Shown one piece after another: positions 2,355 to 11,592 of a DNA stretch of 13,029 nt; positions within the stretch are counted from its first letter, which is position 1; the number at the start of each line of letters is the position of its first letter. The notes beneath the pieces are model-generated. The model made no database searches and was not told where the DNA came from. It saw only the letters and a program-made list of their open reading frames with translations. The DNA is from Bacteriovoracaceae bacterium UBA2428 (GTDB lineage: Bacteria; Bdellovibrionota; UBA2428). A program made the translations under genes and the position numbers. Location: assembly GCA_002343545.1 (NCBI GenBank), contig DDRA01000072.1, forward strand, positions 29,945 through 42,973, written 5' to 3'.

Positions 2355-3905
2355 ATGGGAACGGATCGTCTCGTCATCGCCGCTCGCCGCTCGGATTTGG
2401 CGCGCTACCAAGCGTACCGCGTCGGCGAGGCCTTGATGTCCAAGCACCCCGGATTGAAGGTCGAGTACGCGTTCCGCGAATCGCTGGGCGACAAGAACCA
2501 GCACGATCCGCTTTGGAAGATGCCCGAGCGCGGGGTCTTTACCGAGGACTTCGTCGAGGACCTCGAAACGGGTCGCTGCGATCTCGTCGTTCACTCCTGG
2601 AAAGATCTGCCGGTCGCCGAGCGCGTCGGCACCGAGATCATCGCCACGCTGCCTCGCGCGGACGTGCGGGATCTCCTGCTCCTGAAGCCGGCGCGCTTCG
2701 AGGACGTGCGGGCGGGCCGGGCTCCCTTCGAGATCCTTTCGTCTTCTCCCCGCCGCGCTTATAATTTGGCGAGCGCCCTGCCCCGCCTCCTGCCCGGGGT
2801 CTCCGAGCGCTCCCCGGACTTTCGCTCCATCCGCGGGAACATCCCCACGCGGCTCGAAAAATTCCTCGGCGACGACGCCGCGGTCGGGCTCGTACTCGCG
2901 AAGGCCGCCTTGGATCGCCTGCTCACCGCGCCCGAAGGGGAATTCGCGGAGCTGCAGGCGCGCCTGCGTGCTTCCTTGCGCGGCCTGCGCTTCGTCGTTC
3001 TGCCGGTCGCGCTGGACCCGCCGGCCGCGGCCCAGGGTGCGCTCGCCGTGGAAGCCAAGCGCGGCCGCGCCGAGCTGCGCGCGCTTTGGGACGGCCTCCA
3101 TTGCGCGGACACCTTCGAGTGCGTGCAGGAAGAGCGCCGCATCCTCGCGAGCCACGGCGGCGGCTGCCACCAGAAGATCGGCGTGCACGTGGCGAAGCTG
3201 CGCGGGCACCGCTTCGAAGTTTTGAAGGGCCTGACCGAAGCCGGCGTGCGCCTGGACGAGCGGCGCTTGGAGCGCAAGATCTCGTTCGAGGCGCCCACGG
3301 GTTGGTCCGAGGTGTTTCCGCGCCCCGACGAGCGGTCGGGCTTCGGCTTTGAGCGTCGCCCGCTCGAAGCGCCGAAGGCCGGCGAAGCGGAAGCGCTCTA
3401 CGTCTCGAAGGCCGAGGCCTGGAGGCCCGAGCTCGCGTCGGCGGAACAGGTCGTCTGGACGGCGGGGCTCGAAACCTGGACGAAGCTCGTCGCGCGCGGG
3501 GTCTTCGTTTCGGGATCCGACGAAGGGCTCGGTGAGCGGCTTCCGCTTCTGCCGTGGCGCCCCGAGCTCGCCTGGCGCAAGCTGAGCCACGCCGAAGCGC
3601 CTTCCCGTTCGGAGCTGCCTCTGCGCGCGACTTACTCGCTCCTTCCGGTGGGCACCGTGCCCGAGCTCGCGTCGCGCCGCTTTTTCTTTTGGGCGAGCGC
3701 TTCTTTGTTCGAGCGAGCGCGCGCCGCGAACCCGACGCTCGCCGCGCGCGGCGTTCACGCTTGCGGCCCCGGGCACACGGCCGACGCCCTCGCGGCGGCC
3801 GGGGTTTCGGCGGATCGATTGTGGATTTGTCTCGGTTACGAGGATTGGTCGAAGGAACTCGGACTGGAAGCGGACTCGCGGCGCGAGACCGCCTCCGTGC
3901 CCTGA
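2355..3905 (+). CDS. hemC: Hydroxymethylbilane synthase fused to a compact uroporphyrinogen-III synthase-like domain
   Basis: Residues 1 to about 315 are porphobilinogen deaminase, which polymerises four porphobilinogens into hydroxymethylbilane in the cytoplasm. The key residues are present: Arg11-Arg12 in ARRSDLA, Asp84 in HSWKDLP, Arg133-Arg134 in SSPRR, Arg160 and Arg166 in IRGNIPTR, and Cys271 in GGGCHQKIG, the attachment site of the dipyrromethane cofactor. Residues ~345-516 resemble the later part of HemD, which cyclises the product to uroporphyrinogen III: VVWTAGLETW, then a TYSLLPVG segment, then the ACGPGHTADALAAAG motif near residue 470. This HemD part is about 170 residues, against the usual ~250, and the first lobe looks reduced. 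HemC-HemD fusions have precedent in Leptospira. No Shine-Dalgarno is visible before the ATG. It lies 28 bases after slt and 18 bases before hemE. Confidence 0.88.
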   Translation: MGTDRLVIAARRSDLARYQAYRVGEALMSKHPGLKVEYAFRESLGDKNQHDPLWKMPERGVFTEDFVEDLETGRCDLVVHSWKDLPVAERVGTEIIATLPRADVRDLLLLKPARFEDVRAGRAPFEILSSSPRRAYNLASALPRLLPGVSERSPDFRSIRGNIPTRLEKFLGDDAAVGLVLAKAALDRLLTAPEGEFAELQARLRASLRGLRFVVLPVALDPPAAAQGALAVEAKRGRAELRALWDGLHCADTFECVQEERRILASHGGGCHQKIGVHVAKLRGHRFEVLKGLTEAGVRLDERRLERKISFEAPTGWSEVFPRPDERSGFGFERRPLEAPKAGEAEALYVSKAEAWRPELASAEQVVWTAGLETWTKLVARGVFVSGSDEGLGERLPLLPWRPELAWRKLSHAEAPSRSELPLRATYSLLPVGTVPELASRRFFFWASASLFERARAANPTLAARGVHACGPGHTADALAAAGVSADRLWICLGYEDWSKELGLEADSRRETASVP

Positions 3906-3923
3906 GGATCATGTAGGAGAATG

Positions 3924-4952
3924 ATGGAAGACACGAAGTTTTCGAAGGCCCTTTCCCGTCGGGTTCAGAACGTTCCGCCGATCTGGTTCATGCGCCAGGC
4001 GGGTCGTTACCACGCGCATTACCGCGCGATCCGCGAGAAGCACAGCTTCATGGACCTCTGCAAAGTTCCCGAGCTCGCGACCGAAGTCACGATGGGGCCT
4101 ATCCAAGACTTCGACTTCGACGCCGCGATCCTCTTCAGCGACATCCTCTTTCCGCTCGAAGGCTTCGGCATGGGGCTCGAGTACACGGACGAGGGTCCTC
4201 GCCTCGGCTGGCATCTGCGCGCGGCCGAGGATCTGAAGCGCCTGCGCCCGACCGCGGACGTCGTCGCCTCGCTCGCTTTCCAGGCCGCCGCCCTCCGCCA
4301 GATCCGCGAGCGTCTGCCGCGCGAGAAGGCGCTGCTCGGATTCGTGGGCGGTCCCTGGACGCTCTTCTCCTACGCCGTGCAGGGGCGCCACGAAGGTGGC
4401 CTGCTGGAAGCCAAGCGCCGTCTCAATCTCTTCGCGAGTTTCGCCGAGCACCTCGTTCCCGTCCTCGAGGCGAACATCCGGCTCCAGCTCGACGCGGGCG
4501 CGGACATCGTCATGATCTTCGACACGGCGGCCGGCGAGCTGAGCTCGGAAGCCTTTCGTGAGCGCATCGTTCCGGTGCTGCGCGGTCTCGCCGATCGCTT
4601 TCCGGGGCGTCTCGGTTACTACTCGCGCGGCACGGGTCCCGATCACCTTCGCGACGAGCGAGTTTTGCTGGCCCCCTGGGCCGGGATGGGAGTCGACCAT
4701 CGGTGGGCGATGGGGTCCGCGCTCGGACTTCGCCGCGAGGGTTTTATCCAAGGCAACTTCGACCAGACGCTCCTGCACATGGAGCCCGCGGACTTCGAAG
4801 CCGAGCTGCTCAAGTGGCTCGCGCCCCTGGAGCGCTTGGGCGCCGCGGGACGCGCGGGTTGGGTCTGCGGACTCGGTCACGGCGTCTTGCCGAAGACGCC
4901 GGAGCGCAACGTAAAACGCTTCGTCGAGATCGTGCGCGAACGTCTCGCCTAA
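3924..4952 (+). CDS. hemE: Uroporphyrinogen decarboxylase
   Basis: Decarboxylates the four acetate side chains of uroporphyrinogen III to give coproporphyrinogen III in the cytoplasm, with no cofactor. The 342-residue product has normal family length. It carries the signature FMRQAGRYHAHYRAIR (Arg24, Arg28), the catalytic aspartate in ILFSDIL (Asp73), the GPWTLFSYAVQG substrate loop (Tyr150) and the C-terminal GLGHGVLPKTPERNV (His319). Two ATGs lie in tandem at 3921 and 3924. AGGAG at 3915-3919 is one base from the first and four from the second, so I chose the second. It follows hemC-hemD by 18 bases and precedes the oxidase by 10 bases, so co-transcription is likely. No unusual residue was seen. 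Confidence 0.96.
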   Translation: MEDTKFSKALSRRVQNVPPIWFMRQAGRYHAHYRAIREKHSFMDLCKVPELATEVTMGPIQDFDFDAAILFSDILFPLEGFGMGLEYTDEGPRLGWHLRAAEDLKRLRPTADVVASLAFQAAALRQIRERLPREKALLGFVGGPWTLFSYAVQGRHEGGLLEAKRRLNLFASFAEHLVPVLEANIRLQLDAGADIVMIFDTAAGELSSEAFRERIVPVLRGLADRFPGRLGYYSRGTGPDHLRDERVLLAPWAGMGVDHRWAMGSALGLRREGFIQGNFDQTLLHMEPADFEAELLKWLAPLERLGAAGRAGWVCGLGHGVLPKTPERNVKRFVEIVRERLA

Positions 4953-4962
4953 GGCGAAGCCG

Positions 4963-6198
4963 ATGACGAAGGTTTCTCCGCGCAAGGTCCGCGTGATCGG
5001 CGCGGGATTTTCGGGGCTGCTCGCGGCCCATTACTTGCGGAATCGCGGCTTCGAGGTCGAAGTCTTCGAGGCCGAGGCGCGTTCGGGCGGGCTGCTGCAG
5101 ACGCATCGCCTGCCTTGGGGGCTCGCCGAGACGGCCGCGAACGGATTCCTCGCGAACCTCGAGATCGAGTCGGTGGCCGACGCGGTCGGCTGCGAGCTCG
5201 AGCCCGCGCGCCGCGCGAGCCGACGGCGCTTCTTCTTTCGCGCGGGTCGTGCGCGGCAGTGGCCTTTTCGTTTTTTCGAAGGCGTCGGCGTGATCGTTCG
5301 GCTTTTCTTCGCGTGGATCTTCCGCTTTCTCGCGCCGATCGAAGGCGAGAGCGTGGCGACCTGGGGGCGTCGCGTCGGCGGACCCGCTTTCGTGCGCTGG
5401 TTGCTGGCGCCCGCGCTGTCGGGCATCTACGCGGCGGCGCCCGAAAGACTGTCGGCGCCGCTCCTGCTCCGGCGCTTCTTCGGACAGAAGTTCAAGGCCC
5501 CCAAGCGGGGTCGCTTGCGCGGTCTCGTCGCGCCCCGCCACGGCATGGGAGATTTCGTCGCGAAGCTCGAGGCTTCGCTTCGCGCCCGTGACGTCGCGTT
5601 TCGCTTCGGCCGCGGCGTCACGGCGGCGGAGGCCCAAGGCTGGGCCGCCGCGGGCGGCGTCGTTTGGGCCGTACCGCTGCCCGCCGCGGTCGACGCGCTG
5701 ACGACCTTGTCGCCCGTCCTGGCCGCGGCCCTCGGACGCGTCGGCCGCATCGGTCTCGTGAGCGTGACCGCGTTCTTCGACCCCCGCCCCTCGGACCTGC
5801 GCGGCTTCGGCTGCCTCTTTCCCCGGGGCGAGGGCGTGGTCGCGCTCGGCGCGCTCTTCAACGCCGAGATCTTCGAAGGTCGCGGGGAGCTTCGCTCGGA
5901 GACTTGGATCTACTCCCACGCCGACGTTCCGCGCGACGACGCGATCGTCGTGGAGCAGCTCGCCGCGGATCGCCTTCGGCTCGGCGGCGCGACGAAGGCC
6001 GCGCCCCTCGGCGTGCGGGTCCAACGCTGGCCCTTCGCGCTGCCCGTTTACGACGAAGCCTTGGCGGCCGCGCTCGCGCGCCCGGAGTGGGCGAGTCTTG
6101 AGCGCGCGGGGCATTATTTTGTCGGAAACTATCGGGGTTCGCTCGGGCTCTCCCGCCTCATCGGCGCCGTTCGTGCTACCGTGGAAGCTATCGCATGA
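4963..6198 (+). CDS. hemY: FAD-dependent protoporphyrinogen oxidase (HemY/HemG type)
   Basis: Oxidises protoporphyrinogen IX to protoporphyrin IX, or coproporphyrinogen in the coproporphyrin-dependent route. Seen: an N-terminal Rossmann dinucleotide fold with GAGFSG at residues 13-18 and the ribose-binding acid at the end of the second strand (VEVFEAE). Further on are the family GGLLQTHRLPWGLAE region, a hydrophobic aromatic segment around residues 98-125 that could sit against the membrane, and the C-terminal FAD/substrate motif VGNYRGSLGLSRLIGAV. At 411 residues it is somewhat shorter than the usual ~450-480. The family normally passes electrons to O2, which suggests aerobic haem synthesis. 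The start has AAGG at 4951-4954 eight bases upstream. Its TGA overlaps the hemH ATG in an ATGA junction, so translation is probably coupled. Confidence 0.9.
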   Translation: MTKVSPRKVRVIGAGFSGLLAAHYLRNRGFEVEVFEAEARSGGLLQTHRLPWGLAETAANGFLANLEIESVADAVGCELEPARRASRRRFFFRAGRARQWPFRFFEGVGVIVRLFFAWIFRFLAPIEGESVATWGRRVGGPAFVRWLLAPALSGIYAAAPERLSAPLLLRRFFGQKFKAPKRGRLRGLVAPRHGMGDFVAKLEASLRARDVAFRFGRGVTAAEAQGWAAAGGVVWAVPLPAAVDALTTLSPVLAAALGRVGRIGLVSVTAFFDPRPSDLRGFGCLFPRGEGVVALGALFNAEIFEGRGELRSETWIYSHADVPRDDAIVVEQLAADRLRLGGATKAAPLGVRVQRWPFALPVYDEALAAALARPEWASLERAGHYFVGNYRGSLGLSRLIGAVRATVEAIA

Positions 6199-7220
6199 AG
6201 ACGGCCTTGCTGCTCGTGAACCTGGGGACCCCGGCCTCGACCAAAACGCGTGACGTCCGCGCTTACCTGCGGGAGTTCCTCTCGGATCCCTACGTCCTGG
6301 ACATTCCGGCCCTCGCGCGCTGGCTGCTACTGAATTTCGTGATTTTGCCATTGCGCCCCCGGCGTTCGGGCAAGCTCTACCAGAAGATCTGGACCGAGCG
6401 CGGCTCTCCCCTCTTGTTTCATTCCGAGGACCTTCGCGATAAGGTCGCTTCCATCCTGGGACCGAAGACGCCGGTGCGCTTGGCGATGCGCTACGGCGAG
6501 CCCGCCTTCGCGAAGGTGCTCTCCGAGCTGCAGGCCGAAGGCGTCGAGCGCCTGCTCGTCTTTCCGCTTTATCCGCAGTACGCGCTTTCTTCGACCGAGA
6601 CGGCGAAGGCGCGCGTGCTCGAAGTTTTGGGCGAGCTCGGATGGCAGCCCAAGCTCCAGTGGCTCGCGCCCTTCCATTCCGAGCCCGAGTACATCGAATG
6701 CCTCGCGCGCAGTTTCCGCGAAGGCCTTTCGGCCGAAGGCTTCTCGCACGTTCTCTTCGGGTTTCACGGTTTGCCCGAACGGCACGTCAAGAAGACCGAC
6801 CCCACCGGGCAGCACTGTCTCAAGTCGCCCAGCTGTTGCGACGTCGCCTGCGGCGCGAACAAAGATTGCTACCGCGCCCAGTGCTTTTCCACGGCCCGCC
6901 TGCTCGCCCAGCGACTCGGGTTGCGCCCGGCGCAATACACCGTGGCCTTCCAATCGCGGCTCGGGCGGGATCCTTGGATCAAACCCTATATGGAGGAAGT
7001 CGTGCGGGATCTCGGCAAAGATAAGGTCAAGAATCTCGTCGCCATCTGTCCGGCCTTCACGGCGGATTGCCTGGAGACTTTGGAAGAGACGAAGTTACAG
7101 ATCGGCGGGGAGTTCTTGAAGGCGGGCGGCACCCGCTTCGATTACGTGCCGTGCTTGAACTCGCGCGACGACTGGGCCGCCTTCCTGGCTTCGAAGGCGA
7201 CCCGTATGATGCAAGACTAA
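6195..7220 (+). CDS. hemH: Ferrochelatase with an internal cysteine-rich (probable [2Fe-2S]) insert
   Basis: Inserts Fe2+ into protoporphyrin IX, the last step of protohaem synthesis, at the inner face of the cytoplasmic membrane. Family motifs are clear: LLVNLGTP at the N-terminus, FPLYPQYALSST in the middle, the metal-binding FGFHGLPERH (His191) and AFTADCLETLEE (Glu294). Between His191 and the conserved STARLLAQRLGL helix is an insert with six cysteines (208, 214, 215, 219, 225, 230), absent from the E. coli enzyme. A ferrochelatase class with four cysteines in an internal segment of about 20 residues binding [2Fe-2S], as in Myxococcus xanthus, is known and this looks like a member. It is translationally coupled to the oxidase by a 4-base overlap and is the last gene of the operon. 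It converges with the next gene with only 12 bases between stops. Confidence 0.95.
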   Translation: MKTALLLVNLGTPASTKTRDVRAYLREFLSDPYVLDIPALARWLLLNFVILPLRPRRSGKLYQKIWTERGSPLLFHSEDLRDKVASILGPKTPVRLAMRYGEPAFAKVLSELQAEGVERLLVFPLYPQYALSSTETAKARVLEVLGELGWQPKLQWLAPFHSEPEYIECLARSFREGLSAEGFSHVLFGFHGLPERHVKKTDPTGQHCLKSPSCCDVACGANKDCYRAQCFSTARLLAQRLGLRPAQYTVAFQSRLGRDPWIKPYMEEVVRDLGKDKVKNLVAICPAFTADCLETLEETKLQIGGEFLKAGGTRFDYVPCLNSRDDWAAFLASKATRMMQD

Positions 7221-7232
7221 GAACGCGGGCCG

Positions 7233-7652
7233 CTACTTCTCGAGGCGACACTCGATCGGGGCGTCGTCCTTCGAAACGCAGGTCACCGACACTTCGGTCG
7301 ATTGGGTCAGCTGGCGGGAGTCGTCGCCGTTGTAGTATTCCGCGGTCACGACGACCGTGGCTTTGTACTTGGCCGTCGCCGTGACGGACGGGGCGTCGCA
7401 AGGCAAGCTCGCTTCGACGCTGTCTTCCTTGGCGCTCACGAGACGGAGCACGATCTGAGTGTCGACGCTCGAATTGCTCGACGTCAGGGAAGCGATCGCT
7501 TCGTCGACCACTCGCTTGAGGGCGGAACCCTCGCGCGCGATTTCGTTTTCGACCACTTGGGTCGCGGCGGCTTCGAAGTCCGCGGGGCCGGCCGCAGCCC
7601 GGAGGGTCGACATCACGAGGGTCGTGAGCAAGGCGAAACGAAGCGATGGCAT
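7233..7652 (-). CDS. Small exported protein of unknown function
   Basis: A 139-residue protein I do not recognise. It begins with a plausible Sec signal peptide (MPSLRFALLTTLVMSTLRAAA, cleavage likely after residue 21). The mature part has a helical, charged segment (residues ~25-56) and then a beta-rich, Ser/Thr/Val-rich part with three cysteines (85, 125, 135), suitable for a periplasmic disulphide. The start is supported by AAAGGAG at 7668-7662, nine bases upstream. Residues 28-52 share the pattern AAA, then N-E, R, G-S, V and A at identical spacing with residues 51-75 of the exported protein encoded next to it on the same strand, suggesting diverged paralogues. It ends facing hemH with no terminator visible between them. 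It is probably a real gene because it has a signal peptide, a ribosome site and a coherent composition. Confidence 0.72.
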   Translation of the reverse strand: MPSLRFALLTTLVMSTLRAAAGPADFEAAATQVVENEIAREGSALKRVVDEAIASLTSSNSSVDTQIVLRLVSAKEDSVEASLPCDAPSVTATAKYKATVVVTAEYYNGDDSRQLTQSTEVSVTCVSKDDAPIECRLEK

Positions 7653-7797: not shown

Positions 7798-8241
7798 TCA
7801 GGGAATGAGGAAGTTCAGGTCGACCTGGTTGCCGGCCGAGCAGGCGGAGTTCGAGCAGCTGACCGCGAAGCCGAGCAGCGGCTTCACTTGCGAGCCCTCG
7901 GTGTGCGATTCCTTCACGCTGACGACGGCCAGGAAGTGGCGGGTCGCCGAGCCTTCTTCGCCGACTTCGACGACGCGCACGGCGGTTCCGAGAAAGCGTC
8001 CGCCCGCGCCTTCGCGCGCTTTCGCCACGAGGGCCGCGATGGGGGAACCCTTGCGGCGGGTCTCGTTCAGGGCGAAGTCCTTGGCCGCGGCCGCGACTTT
8101 CGGCGGCGTCGGCGGGGGGACCGAACGGGGATCGTTTACGTTCGCCTCCGAACGCGGCTCCGCTTCGGACGGAAGCGGCGGGTTCGCGAGGGCAAGCGTC
8201 GAAGCGAGGGAAACGGCGAGCGTCACGGCGCGAATAAGCAA
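7798..8241 (-). CDS. Small exported protein of unknown function, probable paralogue of its neighbour
   Basis: A 147-residue protein I do not recognise. From the TTG start it opens with a textbook signal peptide (MLIRAVTLAVSLASTLALA, cleavage after the ALA at 17-19). A proline-rich linker (residues ~20-48) and a C-terminal domain with two nearby cysteines (129 and 134) follow. The frame also has an ATG at 8280, but that ATG overlaps a TAGAAT box and lacks a ribosome site, and using it would put 13 extra residues before the signal peptide. AAGGAGG at 8252-8246 lies four bases before the TTG, which decides the start. Residues 51-75 resemble residues 28-52 of the exported protein at 7233-7652 (AAA, N-E, R, G-S, V, A in register). 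A strong terminator follows the stop, so the gene is likely monocistronic. Periplasmic location is inferred; the function is unknown. Confidence 0.72.
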   Translation of the reverse strand: MLIRAVTLAVSLASTLALANPPLPSEAEPRSEANVNDPRSVPPPTPPKVAAAAKDFALNETRRKGSPIAALVAKAREGAGGRFLGTAVRVVEVGEEGSATRHFLAVVSVKESHTEGSQVKPLLGFAVSCSNSACSAGNQVDLNFLIP

Positions 8242-8245
8242 GTGG

Positions 8246-8252
8246 CCTCCTT
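8246..8252 (-). promoter_or_regulatory. Ribosome binding site selecting a TTG start
   Basis: The minus strand reads AAGGAGG here, full complementarity to the anti-Shine-Dalgarno, four bases before TTG at 8241. It lies inside the frame that the alternative ATG at 8280 would translate, which argues that translation starts at the TTG. Confidence 0.7.
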
Positions 8253-8398
8253 GGCGTCGGGTAGTAGGGACTGGTCTCATTCTAATCGGAACGGAAGCGC
8301 CCGCGGCGGCTTCCGCGCGGCAGAGATTTGACGAGCGGCACGGTCCGTGGCTCTTACAATATCGCTAGGGTTCCTCGACGGGATTGGGAGTCATCGAT
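8253..8398. promoter_or_regulatory. Divergent promoter region between two exported-protein genes
   Basis: The spacer between oppositely directed genes holds promoter-like elements. On the minus strand TAGAAT (8284-8279) is suitably placed to start a short leader for the gene at 7798-8241, but no good -35 is seen. On the plus strand TACAAT (8355-8360) is a good -10; a TTGACG lies upstream at 8328-8333, but the 21-base spacing is longer than ideal. GGGAG at 8386-8390 is the ribosome site for the plus-strand gene. Promoter assignments are by eye only. Confidence 0.4.
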
Positions 8399-9118
8399 AT
8401 GCACGCCAAGCTTCGCGTTCTTCTCTTCGCGACGTTTTTTCACGGCGCGATCCTCGCGGGCCCCGTCTGTCGCACCGAAGCGATTCGTTTGGAGTCGGCC
8501 TCGGGAAGCGGAGAGACGCTGAGGTTGAGTTTCCCGTCGTCCGGCGCGACGTCGGCTTCGGCTCCGCCCGCGCTCGTCTTTCAGGATACCGAGGGTCGGC
8601 CGCAGGCGACGGCGCGCTTGGGCATGAACGGCGTCGCGGTGTACGACGACGGCAACGAGACGAACCCCGCGGTCGTCTACGAGTGGAAGCAAGGAGCCGG
8701 CGGAAAGTGGATCCCCACGGAAAACGTGCTCGATCGGAGCCGGCCGAGTCGGCGCTTCCTCCGAGAGTCGCCCCCCCTCGGCTTCTTTTCGAAGGACTCG
8801 CGCGAGATGCCGCTCTTTTCGTTGAGCCGGAGCGCGGTGGAAGGCGCCGATCACTTTACGGTGAAGCCCGCTTTCGAGGCGAAGACCCAAGTCTCCTTCA
8901 CTTTCGACGGCGAGCGCGGAGGCTTTCGCGTGACCGAAACCCCGGCCGACCCGAAGGATCCCGAACGCAAAGCGAGGGTCTACCTCGTGAAGGACAACTG
9001 CTTCGAGGAGATCACGGACGCGGTGAGCGAAGGCACGCCGCCGAAGGCCAAAGCGCTTCCGGGGGATCCGAAGGGAGCGAGCCACCGGCGTGTCTCGACC
9101 CCCCAGCCTAAAAAGTAA
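8399..9118 (+). CDS. Exported protein of unknown function
   Basis: A 239-residue protein I do not recognise. The N-terminus is a signal peptide (MHAKLRVLLFATFFHGAILA, cleavage near residue 20-21). There is no proper lipobox, since the first cysteine (Cys24) is preceded by GPV. The mature part is polar with beta-type segments (ALVFQDTEGRP, AVVYEWKQG, QVSFTFDGERGGFRVTE, ARVYLVKDNCFEEI), only two cysteines (24 and 201) and a Pro/Lys-rich tail, which suits a small secreted or periplasmic beta-rich protein. A longer frame begins at TTG 8384. I chose ATG 8399 because GGGAG sits eight bases upstream of it and the signal peptide starts cleanly there. It converges with the second hemC-like gene with 6 bases between stops and has no visible terminator. 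No functional clue beyond export. Confidence 0.68.
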   Translation: MHAKLRVLLFATFFHGAILAGPVCRTEAIRLESASGSGETLRLSFPSSGATSASAPPALVFQDTEGRPQATARLGMNGVAVYDDGNETNPAVVYEWKQGAGGKWIPTENVLDRSRPSRRFLRESPPLGFFSKDSREMPLFSLSRSAVEGADHFTVKPAFEAKTQVSFTFDGERGGFRVTETPADPKDPERKARVYLVKDNCFEEITDAVSEGTPPKAKALPGDPKGASHRRVSTPQPKK

Positions 9119-9124
9119 CTCGCG

Positions 9125-10339
9125 TCAGTATTCGACGCGGAACGGAAGGAACTTGCGCGCGCCCTTCGACAGGATGCCGGTGAAGGCCTTGTCGGCGAGC
9201 GACTCGGGCTTGCAGCGGCTCGTGCCGATCTCGCGGTGGCGGATAAGCTCGCCCGACTGCGGATCGCCTAGCACGGTGTCGAGGATCCAAGGATCCTGCG
9301 TTCCCTTGCGGTGGGCGAAGGCGCCCACGGGCGCTTCGCGCGAGCCACCGATCTTCTGCAGGAAAGCGCGCTCGCAGCGGCTGGCCCACGAAGCCTCGGA
9401 GTCTTCGACGTAGCGAAGCTTCGCGATGAGGTCGGCGTCGTCGGCGCGGCAAACGACGGCCACGATGCCCTGGCACGCGGCCGGCACCATGAAGTCGGAT
9501 TGGAGCGCGACGTAGAAGCGCGGCGAAAGGTTCAATCGACGCAGGCTCGCCCACGACAGGATGACCGCGTCGAGGTTGTCCTCTTCGAGTCGCTCCAGGC
9601 GCGAGGGGATGTCGCCGCGGATCGGGACGATTTCGATGTCCGGACGCAGCGTCTTGATCTGCATGATCCGGCGTTTCGAAGTCGTCGCGACGCGCGCGCG
9701 CGTCGGGAGTTCCTGGATGGCGCCGTAGGTCGAGCGCGTTACCATCGCGTCGCGGGGGTCTTCGCGCTTGAGCGTCGAAACGAGCGCGAGGCCCTCGGGC
9801 AGGTTGAGCGGCACGTCCTTCATGTTCTGAACGACGATGTCGATCTTCTTGCCGACGAGCTGTTGGTAGAGCTCGCGCGAATAGGTGTGAAAGCCGATGG
9901 GCGCGGAACTCGAGGTCTTGTCGGATTTGACGAGCGGCGACTCGAAACCTTGCCACGTCAGCGTGTCTTGGTTGTGCCGGCCCAGGTAGACGCGGTTGAA
10001 CTCTTCGTTCATGACGCGACCGAGGCTCGTGTTCCACGAGCCGACGATGTAGTCGCCGCGATTGAAGACGGGGCCCGAGGGCTGCTTCTTCGCGTCGTTA
10101 CGCTTGTCGTCGTCGCCGCGACGGATCGGGAAAGTGCCGATGAACTCCATCGCGAACGCCGCGGGCGACGGCTTGGCCGCCGCCGCTTTCGCCTTCGGAG
10201 CCGGAGCTTCCTTGGCGACGGGCGCTTTGGCCGCGGCCGGCTTTACGGCCGCTTTGGCTTTGCTTCCCTTGGCACCGGCGCCAGACTTGGCGGGGGCGCT
10301 TCCGGGTTTTCGGGCGTTCGACTTTTTCTTGGCTGCCAT
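9125..10339 (-). CDS. Hydroxymethylbilane synthase-like protein lacking the cofactor cysteine, with a Lys/Ala-rich N-terminal tail
   Basis: A 404-residue HemC homologue. Residues ~96-404 follow the family end to end: QNMKDVPLNLPEGL (Asp175 at the catalytic aspartate position), TTSKRRIMQI, IRGDIPSRLERL (Arg241 and Arg247) and PAACQGIVAVV. However, the loop that should carry the dipyrromethane cofactor reads IGGSREAPVGAF, with Ser333 (codon TCG) where GGC is expected. The N-terminal motif normally containing Arg11 reads VGSWNTSLGR, with Trp at the arginine. HS of the usual HSMKDVP is QN. Residues 1-60 form a Lys/Ala/Pro-rich, histone-H1-like tail. The ATG has GGAGG 11 bases upstream; GTG at 10357 is the alternative. 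The gene overlaps hemA by 97 bases. It occupies the classical hemC position after hemA, while a complete-looking HemC is encoded at 2355. It may be a pseudoenzyme or have another role; orthodox catalysis looks unlikely. Confidence 0.88.
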   Translation of the reverse strand: MAAKKKSNARKPGSAPAKSGAGAKGSKAKAAVKPAAAKAPVAKEAPAPKAKAAAAKPSPAAFAMEFIGTFPIRRGDDDKRNDAKKQPSGPVFNRGDYIVGSWNTSLGRVMNEEFNRVYLGRHNQDTLTWQGFESPLVKSDKTSSSAPIGFHTYSRELYQQLVGKKIDIVVQNMKDVPLNLPEGLALVSTLKREDPRDAMVTRSTYGAIQELPTRARVATTSKRRIMQIKTLRPDIEIVPIRGDIPSRLERLEEDNLDAVILSWASLRRLNLSPRFYVALQSDFMVPAACQGIVAVVCRADDADLIAKLRYVEDSEASWASRCERAFLQKIGGSREAPVGAFAHRKGTQDPWILDTVLGDPQSGELIRHREIGTSRCKPESLADKAFTGILSKGARKFLPFRVEY

Positions 10340-11592
10340 TCGGCCGCTTGCCTCCACGCACGCAACAACACCTCCAGAACCTGTCGCGCCGGGACGTCGT
10401 CGAGAGCGTCCAATTCACGCACGAGGAGATGCATCATCTTTGAATTGATGGTGCGGGATAAATAGTCGATTTCTGAATTTTTTTCCAGGTTTTTTTCTGT
10501 GAGTTCGTGGAGACGGAGGGCCTCCACGCAGCGGTAGAGTTCACCGACGAGGGGGCCCCGGGCGCGGACTTCGAAACTCCGAGCGAATTCCCGAACTTCC
10601 TCTTCGACGATGCGGTCCGAAGCTTCGGCCCAGGACTGCCGACGGGCTTCGTTCTCGCGGATGCGCGTGCTGAACTCGTCGACGTTTCGAACGTAAAACT
10701 GCGAAAAGCCGTGGATCTTCTCGTCGACGTTGCGGGGCAGGCCGAGATCCAAAATAACGCGGGGGCCGCGTCGCCCCTGCCCCTTCGTCGCGCGTTCGGC
10801 CCGCAGAGCCTCGAGCCGAAGGATCGCGGATTCGGCCGACGTCGCGGCGACCACGATGTCGTGGCGCCAGACTTCGGCGTGTCGATTCGCGAAGGGAGCG
10901 ATCTCGCATTCGGCCGCGAGGGGATGGGCGGCCAGGCGATCGGGGCTGCGGTTCGACCACGTGATACGGGAGAGCCCGAGTTTGCGCAGGCGCACGAGGG
11001 CCTGCTCGGCCATCGAGCCCGCGCCCAGCACCAAAGCGGATTTGTCTTCGAGGCTTTCGAAAACCTCGAGGAGCCCGTCGACGGCGACGTGCGCGACGCT
11101 GATCGTGCCTTCGCCCAGTTTCGTCTCGCTGCGGATGCGCTTGGCGACGCGAAGCGCGAACTGAGAAATGGAATCCAGGGGCCCGTGCAAAACCCCGATC
11201 TTGCGGGCGAACTCAGTGGCGTCGCGCATTTGCCCCGTGATCTGCGTTTCGCCCAGAACTTCGCTCTCGAGGCTCGCCGTCACGCGTACGAGCCGGTCGA
11301 GCACGGCGGAACCCTCGACGAGCGTCGCGCGACCGAGGTCGGCCCCCGTGGCCCGACTCCAGGCCAGGCGCAGCGACTCCGTGGGAATCCCGAAGGAGTA
11401 GAGCTCCACGCGGTGGCAGGTTCCCAGGTAGAAGAGCCCGGCGTCGGCTTCGTTCGACTCGGCCAAAGCGCGCCGCCACTCCTTGAGGAGGGCTTCGATC
11501 CGTTCCGGCGCGAGGTGCGCGCCTTCGCGCGCTTCCACCGCGTGGCCATCCCGGGCGCTCAGGCTAAGGCAGCTCAGTCCGTCGAGTCGCAT
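10243..11592 (-). CDS. hemA: Glutamyl-tRNA reductase (divergent)
   Basis: Reduces glutamyl-tRNA(Glu) to glutamate-1-semialdehyde with NADPH, the first committed step of the C5 haem pathway. The nucleophilic cysteine is present in LGTCHRVELYS (Cys59), followed by LESEVLGETQITGQM, the NADPH-binding VLGAGSMAEQALVRL (residues ~188-202), and LDLGLPRNVD near 281-290. A helical C-terminal dimerisation region follows. Departures from the family: the N-terminal GINHKTAP-type motif is replaced by SLSARDGHAVEARE, the conserved histidine equivalent to E. coli His99 aligns with Arg100, and NR after the cysteine is HR. The last ~30 residues are a Pro/Lys tail outside the conserved domain, encoded in the overlap with the hemC-like gene. 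The ATG lies three bases after the stop of the hemX-like gene and has no clear ribosome site, so translational coupling is likely. At 449 residues it is slightly longer than usual. Confidence 0.93.
   Translation of the reverse strand: MRLDGLSCLSLSARDGHAVEAREGAHLAPERIEALLKEWRRALAESNEADAGLFYLGTCHRVELYSFGIPTESLRLAWSRATGADLGRATLVEGSAVLDRLVRVTASLESEVLGETQITGQMRDATEFARKIGVLHGPLDSISQFALRVAKRIRSETKLGEGTISVAHVAVDGLLEVFESLEDKSALVLGAGSMAEQALVRLRKLGLSRITWSNRSPDRLAAHPLAAECEIAPFANRHAEVWRHDIVVAATSAESAILRLEALRAERATKGQGRRGPRVILDLGLPRNVDEKIHGFSQFYVRNVDEFSTRIRENEARRQSWAEASDRIVEEEVREFARSFEVRARGPLVGELYRCVEALRLHELTEKNLEKNSEIDYLSRTINSKMMHLLVRELDALDDVPARQVLEVLLRAWRQAAEWQPRKSRTPENPEAPPPSLAPVPREAKPKRP
10351..10355 (-). 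promoter_or_regulatory. Ribosome binding site of the second hemC-like gene
   Basis: The minus strand reads GGAGG, 11 bases before the ATG at 10339. It also overlaps the GTG at 10357, which makes GTG unlikely as the start. The site lies inside the hemA coding sequence, so ribosomes translating hemA pass over it and the two genes may be coupled. Confidence 0.55.

Follow-up and report, generated by a model that had tools for sequence, protein, structure and literature searches.

The window, i.e. the whole 13,029-nucleotide stretch analysed here, encodes on its minus strand (9125..10339) a 404-residue protein, HemCx, that resembles hydroxymethylbilane synthase (HMBS; HemC, porphobilinogen deaminase) and belongs to a separate family without the cofactor cysteine. 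Judged from sequence, HemCx is very probably non-catalytic as an HMBS. Our best explanation, held with a little better than even confidence, is that it is a dedicated HMBS-derived pseudoenzyme, which probably now serves haem synthesis as a helper or sensor.

The hemCx frame is open from an ATG at 10339, preceded by a Shine-Dalgarno-like GGAGG (10351..10355, minus strand) that the letters place 11 nt 5' of this codon; the same frame is also open upstream, from a GTG at 10357. The preliminary description of this DNA was right to call the frame at 9125-10339 intact, provided that it is read on the minus strand, as the plus-strand reading is interrupted by a stop. The product matches Pfam PF01379 with 158 bits. 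Codons 1-64 (10148..10339) encode a basic tail, rich in Lys, Ala and Pro, nearly acid-free, with a net charge of +14 and predicted with low confidence in the model (m73569d5adcfb). They are followed by a linker specific to the family (codons 65-92, 10064..10147; [DE]FIGxFPxR..KK.D.KK...GPVF). For codons 93-404 (9128..10063), the predicted model and fold comparison indicate the three-domain HMBS fold, so that the fold signatures reported earlier do appear to persist. Within the family, conservation is highest in domain 3 (codons 310-401, 9137..9412), which contains the invariant Cys322 and Cys376.

The extent of the family was delimited by a search of ~5.8 billion proteins, in which scores were computed for the 7,999 candidates with the most words in common; 185 had E < 0.001 and the best 120 of these 185 were used. 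The family comprises 67 relatives with E-values of 1e-93 or better and 46-100% identity, the next match being an ordinary HMBS at 1e-41. Two entries, P0001 and P0002, are the window's own hemCx, the latter with a later start, hence the 68-row alignment represents 67 different proteins. A profile search with a cut-off of 1e-20 added four fragments and found no intermediates, its next match standing at 1e-43. The family is carried by all four genomes of the UBA2428-type class, sampled as one per genus (590-616 bits). Among the 364 other genomes of the phylum, with up to five candidates scored in each, the best score was 155 bits, the level of an ordinary HMBS. Four named loci were matched. Three belong to the family, all metagenome-assembled genomes labelled Bacteriovorax stolpii, bacterium and Bacteriovoracaceae bacterium, and are the same contigs as those of class genomes G001, G003 and G002; the fourth, L014, was rejected as a member, being an ordinary HMBS (36% identical) from a Rhodospirillales metagenome-assembled genome. 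The source given for one family protein is Bdellovibrionota.

The cofactor loop was aligned by phmmer against solved HMBS and by MAFFT with the HemC of E. coli K-12, retrieved under its accession. Both place G331-G332-S333-R334 of HemCx (9338..9349, minus strand) opposite E239-G240-G241-C242 of E. coli without gaps. The loop had been described as GGS, with serine in place of the cofactor cysteine: Ser333 is indeed encoded by TCG and the cysteine is absent, but the serine lies one residue off, opposite Gly241, and the residue at the cysteine position is Arg334. The two other residues singled out at that stage are confirmed by MAFFT, with Trp102 (10034..10036) in the column of Arg11, the first catalytic arginine, and Asp175 (9815..9817) in that of the catalytic Asp84, where 51 of the 68 family rows have Asp. 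Primer anchoring by Cys242/Cys261 and catalysis involving Asp84/Asp99 are the roles given for HMBS in PMC8561815. Without the cysteine, the dipyrromethane primer would be neither held nor pulled past the catalytic aspartate.

The idea that both Ser and Trp would be conserved among relatives did not hold. Serine occurs in 9/68 rows in column 333 and in 5/68 in column 334, and the Arg11 column contains R in 35 rows, F in 12 and W in two, which are both entries of the window's gene. With serine in 9/68 rows and Trp confined to the window's hemCx, these letters were not the target of selection. Relatives with a cysteine in the column of residue 242 had been named as a refutation. This cysteine is present in 53/53 canonical HMBS among the matches listed and in 0/68 family rows; it is also missing from the four additional fragments, and one row (P0064) has a cysteine elsewhere within the loop. 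As far as the alignments tell, the conserved trait is the absence of the cofactor cysteine, rather than Ser or Trp.

Erosion of the active site extends beyond this residue. Family rows retain 2-10 of the 13 residues of the catalytic signature, HemCx itself seven. The 53 canonical HMBS among the matches listed retain 13 (46 proteins), 12 (one) or 11 (six, in which R11 and S13 are gapped). Mostly kept in the family are R131 (67/68), R176 (66), R155 (64), K83 (61), R132 (56) and D84 (51); mostly or largely lost are S81 (kept in 2/68), R149 (8), F62 (13), S13 (14), H80 (21) and R11 (35). Five of the six arginines R11, R131, R132, R149, R155 and R176 are present in HemCx, from which R11 alone has gone. 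Set against HMBS, HemCx thus has the predicted fold and the Asp84 equivalent, and lacks the cofactor cysteine and the complete arginine set.

The family has nevertheless remained under strong constraint. Cross-genus identities were compared over the four genomes, or over three in the case of HemE and HemCD, with the hemCx tail excluded. They reach 54-59% for hemCx, 52% for the HMBS part of HemCD and 52-55% for HemE, with 39-47% for HemH, 31-42% for HemA, 31-37% for HemY and 59-68% for the neighbouring thioredoxin. A copy devoid of the cysteine is therefore as constrained as the live enzymes, which argues that hemCx has a function. Columns that are at least 95% conserved number 46/92 in domain 3 of the family versus 4/92 in canonical HMBS, 4/98 versus 13/98 in domain 1 and 27/100 versus 17/100 in domain 2. 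Since domain 2 is part of the active-site cleft and is still conserved, the cleft was not simply abandoned.

The gene hemA, coding for glutamyl-tRNA reductase (10243..11592, minus strand), shares 97 nt of its 3' end (10243-10339) with hemCx. In three genera the hemCx ATG lies inside the end of hemA, by 97, 91 and 55 nt; in the fourth, the letters place it 3 nt after that end, the genes abutting. In the window, L011 and L012, trx is followed by ccsX-hemA-hemCx, convergent with hemH-hemY-hemE-hemCD-SLT, with hemCx and hemCD 3.5-5.2 kb apart (ccsX is a working label for a membrane-protein-like gene without any family match in a Pfam/NCBIfam-type profile search). The order is the same at L013 as far as the contig extends, into hemE; this contig end can explain the single PF01379 match in that 66%-complete genome. 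The convergence of hemA-hemCx with hemH-Y-E-(CD) is thus found in all four genera, within contig reach. In the other classes, hemA, placed by tblastn, adjoins the HMBS gene in 23 of the 26 fetched loci; of the three exceptions, two are of HemCD type and one is at the edge of its contig. HemA was found in nine of 16 selected HemCD-type genomes, beside HemCD in 9/9. In this phylum, the slot behind hemA is thus the usual one for hemC, and in the UBA2428-type class it is, on sequence evidence, occupied by a pseudoenzyme. Three small ORFs lie between hemH and hemCx in the window (7233-7652 and 7798-8280 on the minus strand, 8384-9118 on the plus strand); they have no Pfam match and, by tblastn at 1e-3, no counterpart in L011-L013, and are possibly a lineage-specific insertion between the two haem gene groups.

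The second HMBS of the window, HemCD (2355..3905, plus strand), combines an HMBS domain with a C-terminal extension of ~210 residues. It has all 13 signature residues, including the cofactor cysteine Cys271 (3165..3167, plus strand) in a GGGC loop, and an intact second HMBS of this kind is present in three of the four class genomes. Bdellovibrio bacteriovorus and further named Bdellovibrio are represented among its listed homologues, and the loop motif G-[GA]-x-C occurs in 120 of the 120 HemCD homologues listed, the window's own entry P0128 included. PF01379 was found in 283 of 368 phylum genomes, with one match in 275 and two in eight, namely three of the class and G216, G253, G293, G348 and G367; most matches listed for the phylum are frames of ~420-590 residues, i.e. 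the size of HemCD. The occurrence of HemCD relatives in cultured Bdellovibrio and the single match in 275/283 genomes suggest that HemCD suffices for haem. For HemCD, the fold comparison covered residues 1-307. The extension (3300-3905, plus strand) has no Pfam match, and neither hmmsearch nor hhalign matched it to E. coli HemD; HEM4 was above cut-off in none of the four class genomes. On size and position only, the extension is probably HemD, the uroporphyrinogen III synthase. The family-wide loss of the essential cysteine, the presence of an intact paralogue in 3/4 class genomes, the retained synteny and the strong constraint together uphold, at the level of sequence, the initial proposal that the classical hemC position holds a conserved pseudoenzyme.

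Profile matches identify hemE (3921-4952), a hemY-like gene (4963-6198) and hemH (6195-7220), all on the plus strand. Each of the four class genomes has one copy of HemA and a HemL candidate whose score (501-516 bits) is just below the cut-off of 527; HemB was found in three. In the window's genome, HemB (PF00490) is matched in three separate pieces (G000:C172:28778-30047), with one match each in two relatives; the split reflects an assembly error or a broken gene. In other families (L063-L067), HemCD is accompanied by short HemA homologues, with frames of 301-347 residues. These have TCQR or TCLR replacing TCNR and no GExQI motif, and may be degenerate or remodelled.

The origin of hemCx was addressed with a tree of 50 rows, including 18 of the 68 family rows. 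The family forms one clade (100/100) with a stem length of 1.53, HemCD a separate branch (100/95). The family groups with canonical HMBS and not with HemCD, with moderate support (92/76). An origin from HemCD was rejected as the tree favours canonical HMBS, but the support is only 92/76 and the stem is 1.53.

A role for HemCx within the tetrapyrrole pathway is fairly probable. The protein would no longer be able to anchor the dipyrromethane primer as HMBS is known to do and, with several substrate-handling residues gone from the family, would not polymerise porphobilinogen, a task that the nearby HemCD would perform. The cleft may still bind a pathway molecule (porphobilinogen, a bilane/porphyrinogen or haem): the retained arginines suggest that carboxylate-rich pyrroles could be accommodated, and a porphobilinogen- or tetrapyrrole-binding regulator is plausible given that the R131, R155 and R176 columns (Arg223, Arg247 and Arg268 in HemCx) are mostly retained. 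The rewriting of domain 3 suggests a protein partner, to which domain 3, linker and tail would bind once the ligand is in place. The RKGTQDPWI / REIGTSRCKPESLA surface of HemCx would be the expected interface with HemA or HemCD. HemA is the likeliest single target, a tentative choice that has somewhat less than an even chance, made because hemA overlaps or abuts hemCx and because its product performs the first committed step, at the entry to the pathway; the basic tail could then target tRNA or the HemA.tRNA complex, and the outcome would be feedback on pathway entry. The adjacency lends this weak support, as the hemA-hemC order is ancestral and ordinary elsewhere in the phylum, and may reflect inheritance, not function. 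HemA also evolves fast (31-42% identity), which would not be expected if it had a tightly conserved surface for a partner. A TCHR motif in the four class HemAs was considered as a sign of coupling and discarded, as the motif varies phylum-wide (TCNR, TCQR and TCLR across L059-L067). In a bolder version, which we think rather unlikely, the whole class would have converted the ancestral hemA-linked HMBS into a ligand sensor docking on HemA or its tRNA complex, catalysis having passed to HemCD. The cleft would read an intermediate or haem and the rewritten domain 3 would dock, aided by the basic tail.

Other functions fit parts of these observations. HemCx could be a non-catalytic partner of HemCD (or HemE), aiding substrate channelling or product release, as the conserved neighbourhood with hemCD, hemE, hemY and hemH, the rewritten domain 3 and a constraint similar to that of HemCD and HemE would suggest. 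However, HemCD-type genes occur elsewhere in the phylum in genomes without the HemCx family, and hemCx sits behind hemA and convergent with hemCD. We consider this function unlikely. The tail raises the alternative of a nucleic-acid-linked regulator of transcription or translation, slightly less probable still, in which the Lys/Ala-rich segment would bind nucleic acid (DNA or RNA) and a tetrapyrrole would be sensed by the HMBS cleft. The linker was found in 61 of the 68 rows; 43 of these 61 have a tail of at least 30 residues, all net positive (median +13). Pfam HC2 is matched by 2/68 rows (best E 0.00035) and an NCBIfam histone H1-like profile by 1/68. The sequence and length of the tail are however variable, profile searches of the family rows found no DNA-binding domain, and 18/61 called proteins begin less than 30 residues before the linker, which may be due to gene-calling error or true absence.

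An active HMBS, using a free primer or one anchored by Cys322, Cys376 or Cys289, is very improbable. The first two cysteines are found in 68/68 family rows and the third in 62/68, domain 2 conservation persists, and residual or altered chemistry is possible because R131, R176, R155, K83, R132 and D84 are mostly kept and, of the six arginines, HemCx lacks R11 only. Yet R149 is lost in 60/68 rows and S81 in 66/68, D84 is changed in 17/68, Cys322 also occurs in 6/53 canonical HMBS with the normal cysteine (among the matches listed), and a complete HMBS exists elsewhere in three of the four genomes. That hemCx is a decaying duplicate or an assembly artefact is scarcely credible: the window's assembly is 74% complete and in 185 contigs, but the frames are intact, with synteny and 54-59% identity across four genera, and the 67 proteins come from several sources. 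Local decay or sequencing error was rejected on the equal loss of the cysteine in these 67 proteins and the synteny in four genera.

Compared with E. coli HemC (1pda), the family thus lacks the cofactor cysteine and most copies of R149 and S81, and has a rewritten domain 3 and an additional basic tail and linker. The Bdellovibrio-type HemCD (window 2355-3905; B. bacteriovorus P0212) shares superfamily and gene cluster with HemCx and, unlike it, retains the catalytic residues on its separate branch of the tree. A functional parallel, proposed without any claim of homology for the HMBS-derived HemCx, is the non-catalytic plant GluTR-binding protein, described as binding haem and controlling glutamyl-tRNA reductase (PMC6597238). 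Among the papers listed in searches of the open-licence PMC literature, there was no report of an HMBS pseudoenzyme and nothing relevant on a hemC paralogue in Bdellovibrio, on C242S or on an inactive PBGD paralogue; one paper applies 'pseudoenzyme' to a TrpC-TrpF protein. In the window, the hemC equivalog model TIGR00212 (cut-off 164) accepts HemCx, which has no cofactor cysteine (192.8 bits), and rejects the intact HemCD (149.2 bits), so that the name hemC would go to the wrong gene in an automatic annotation.

HMBS is commonly viewed as an enzyme with a single function. If the sensor reading is true, HemCx would be, to our knowledge, the first HMBS-derived sensor. A class-wide family with the HMBS fold, strongly constrained without its cofactor anchor, would point to an unrecognised control of haem synthesis.
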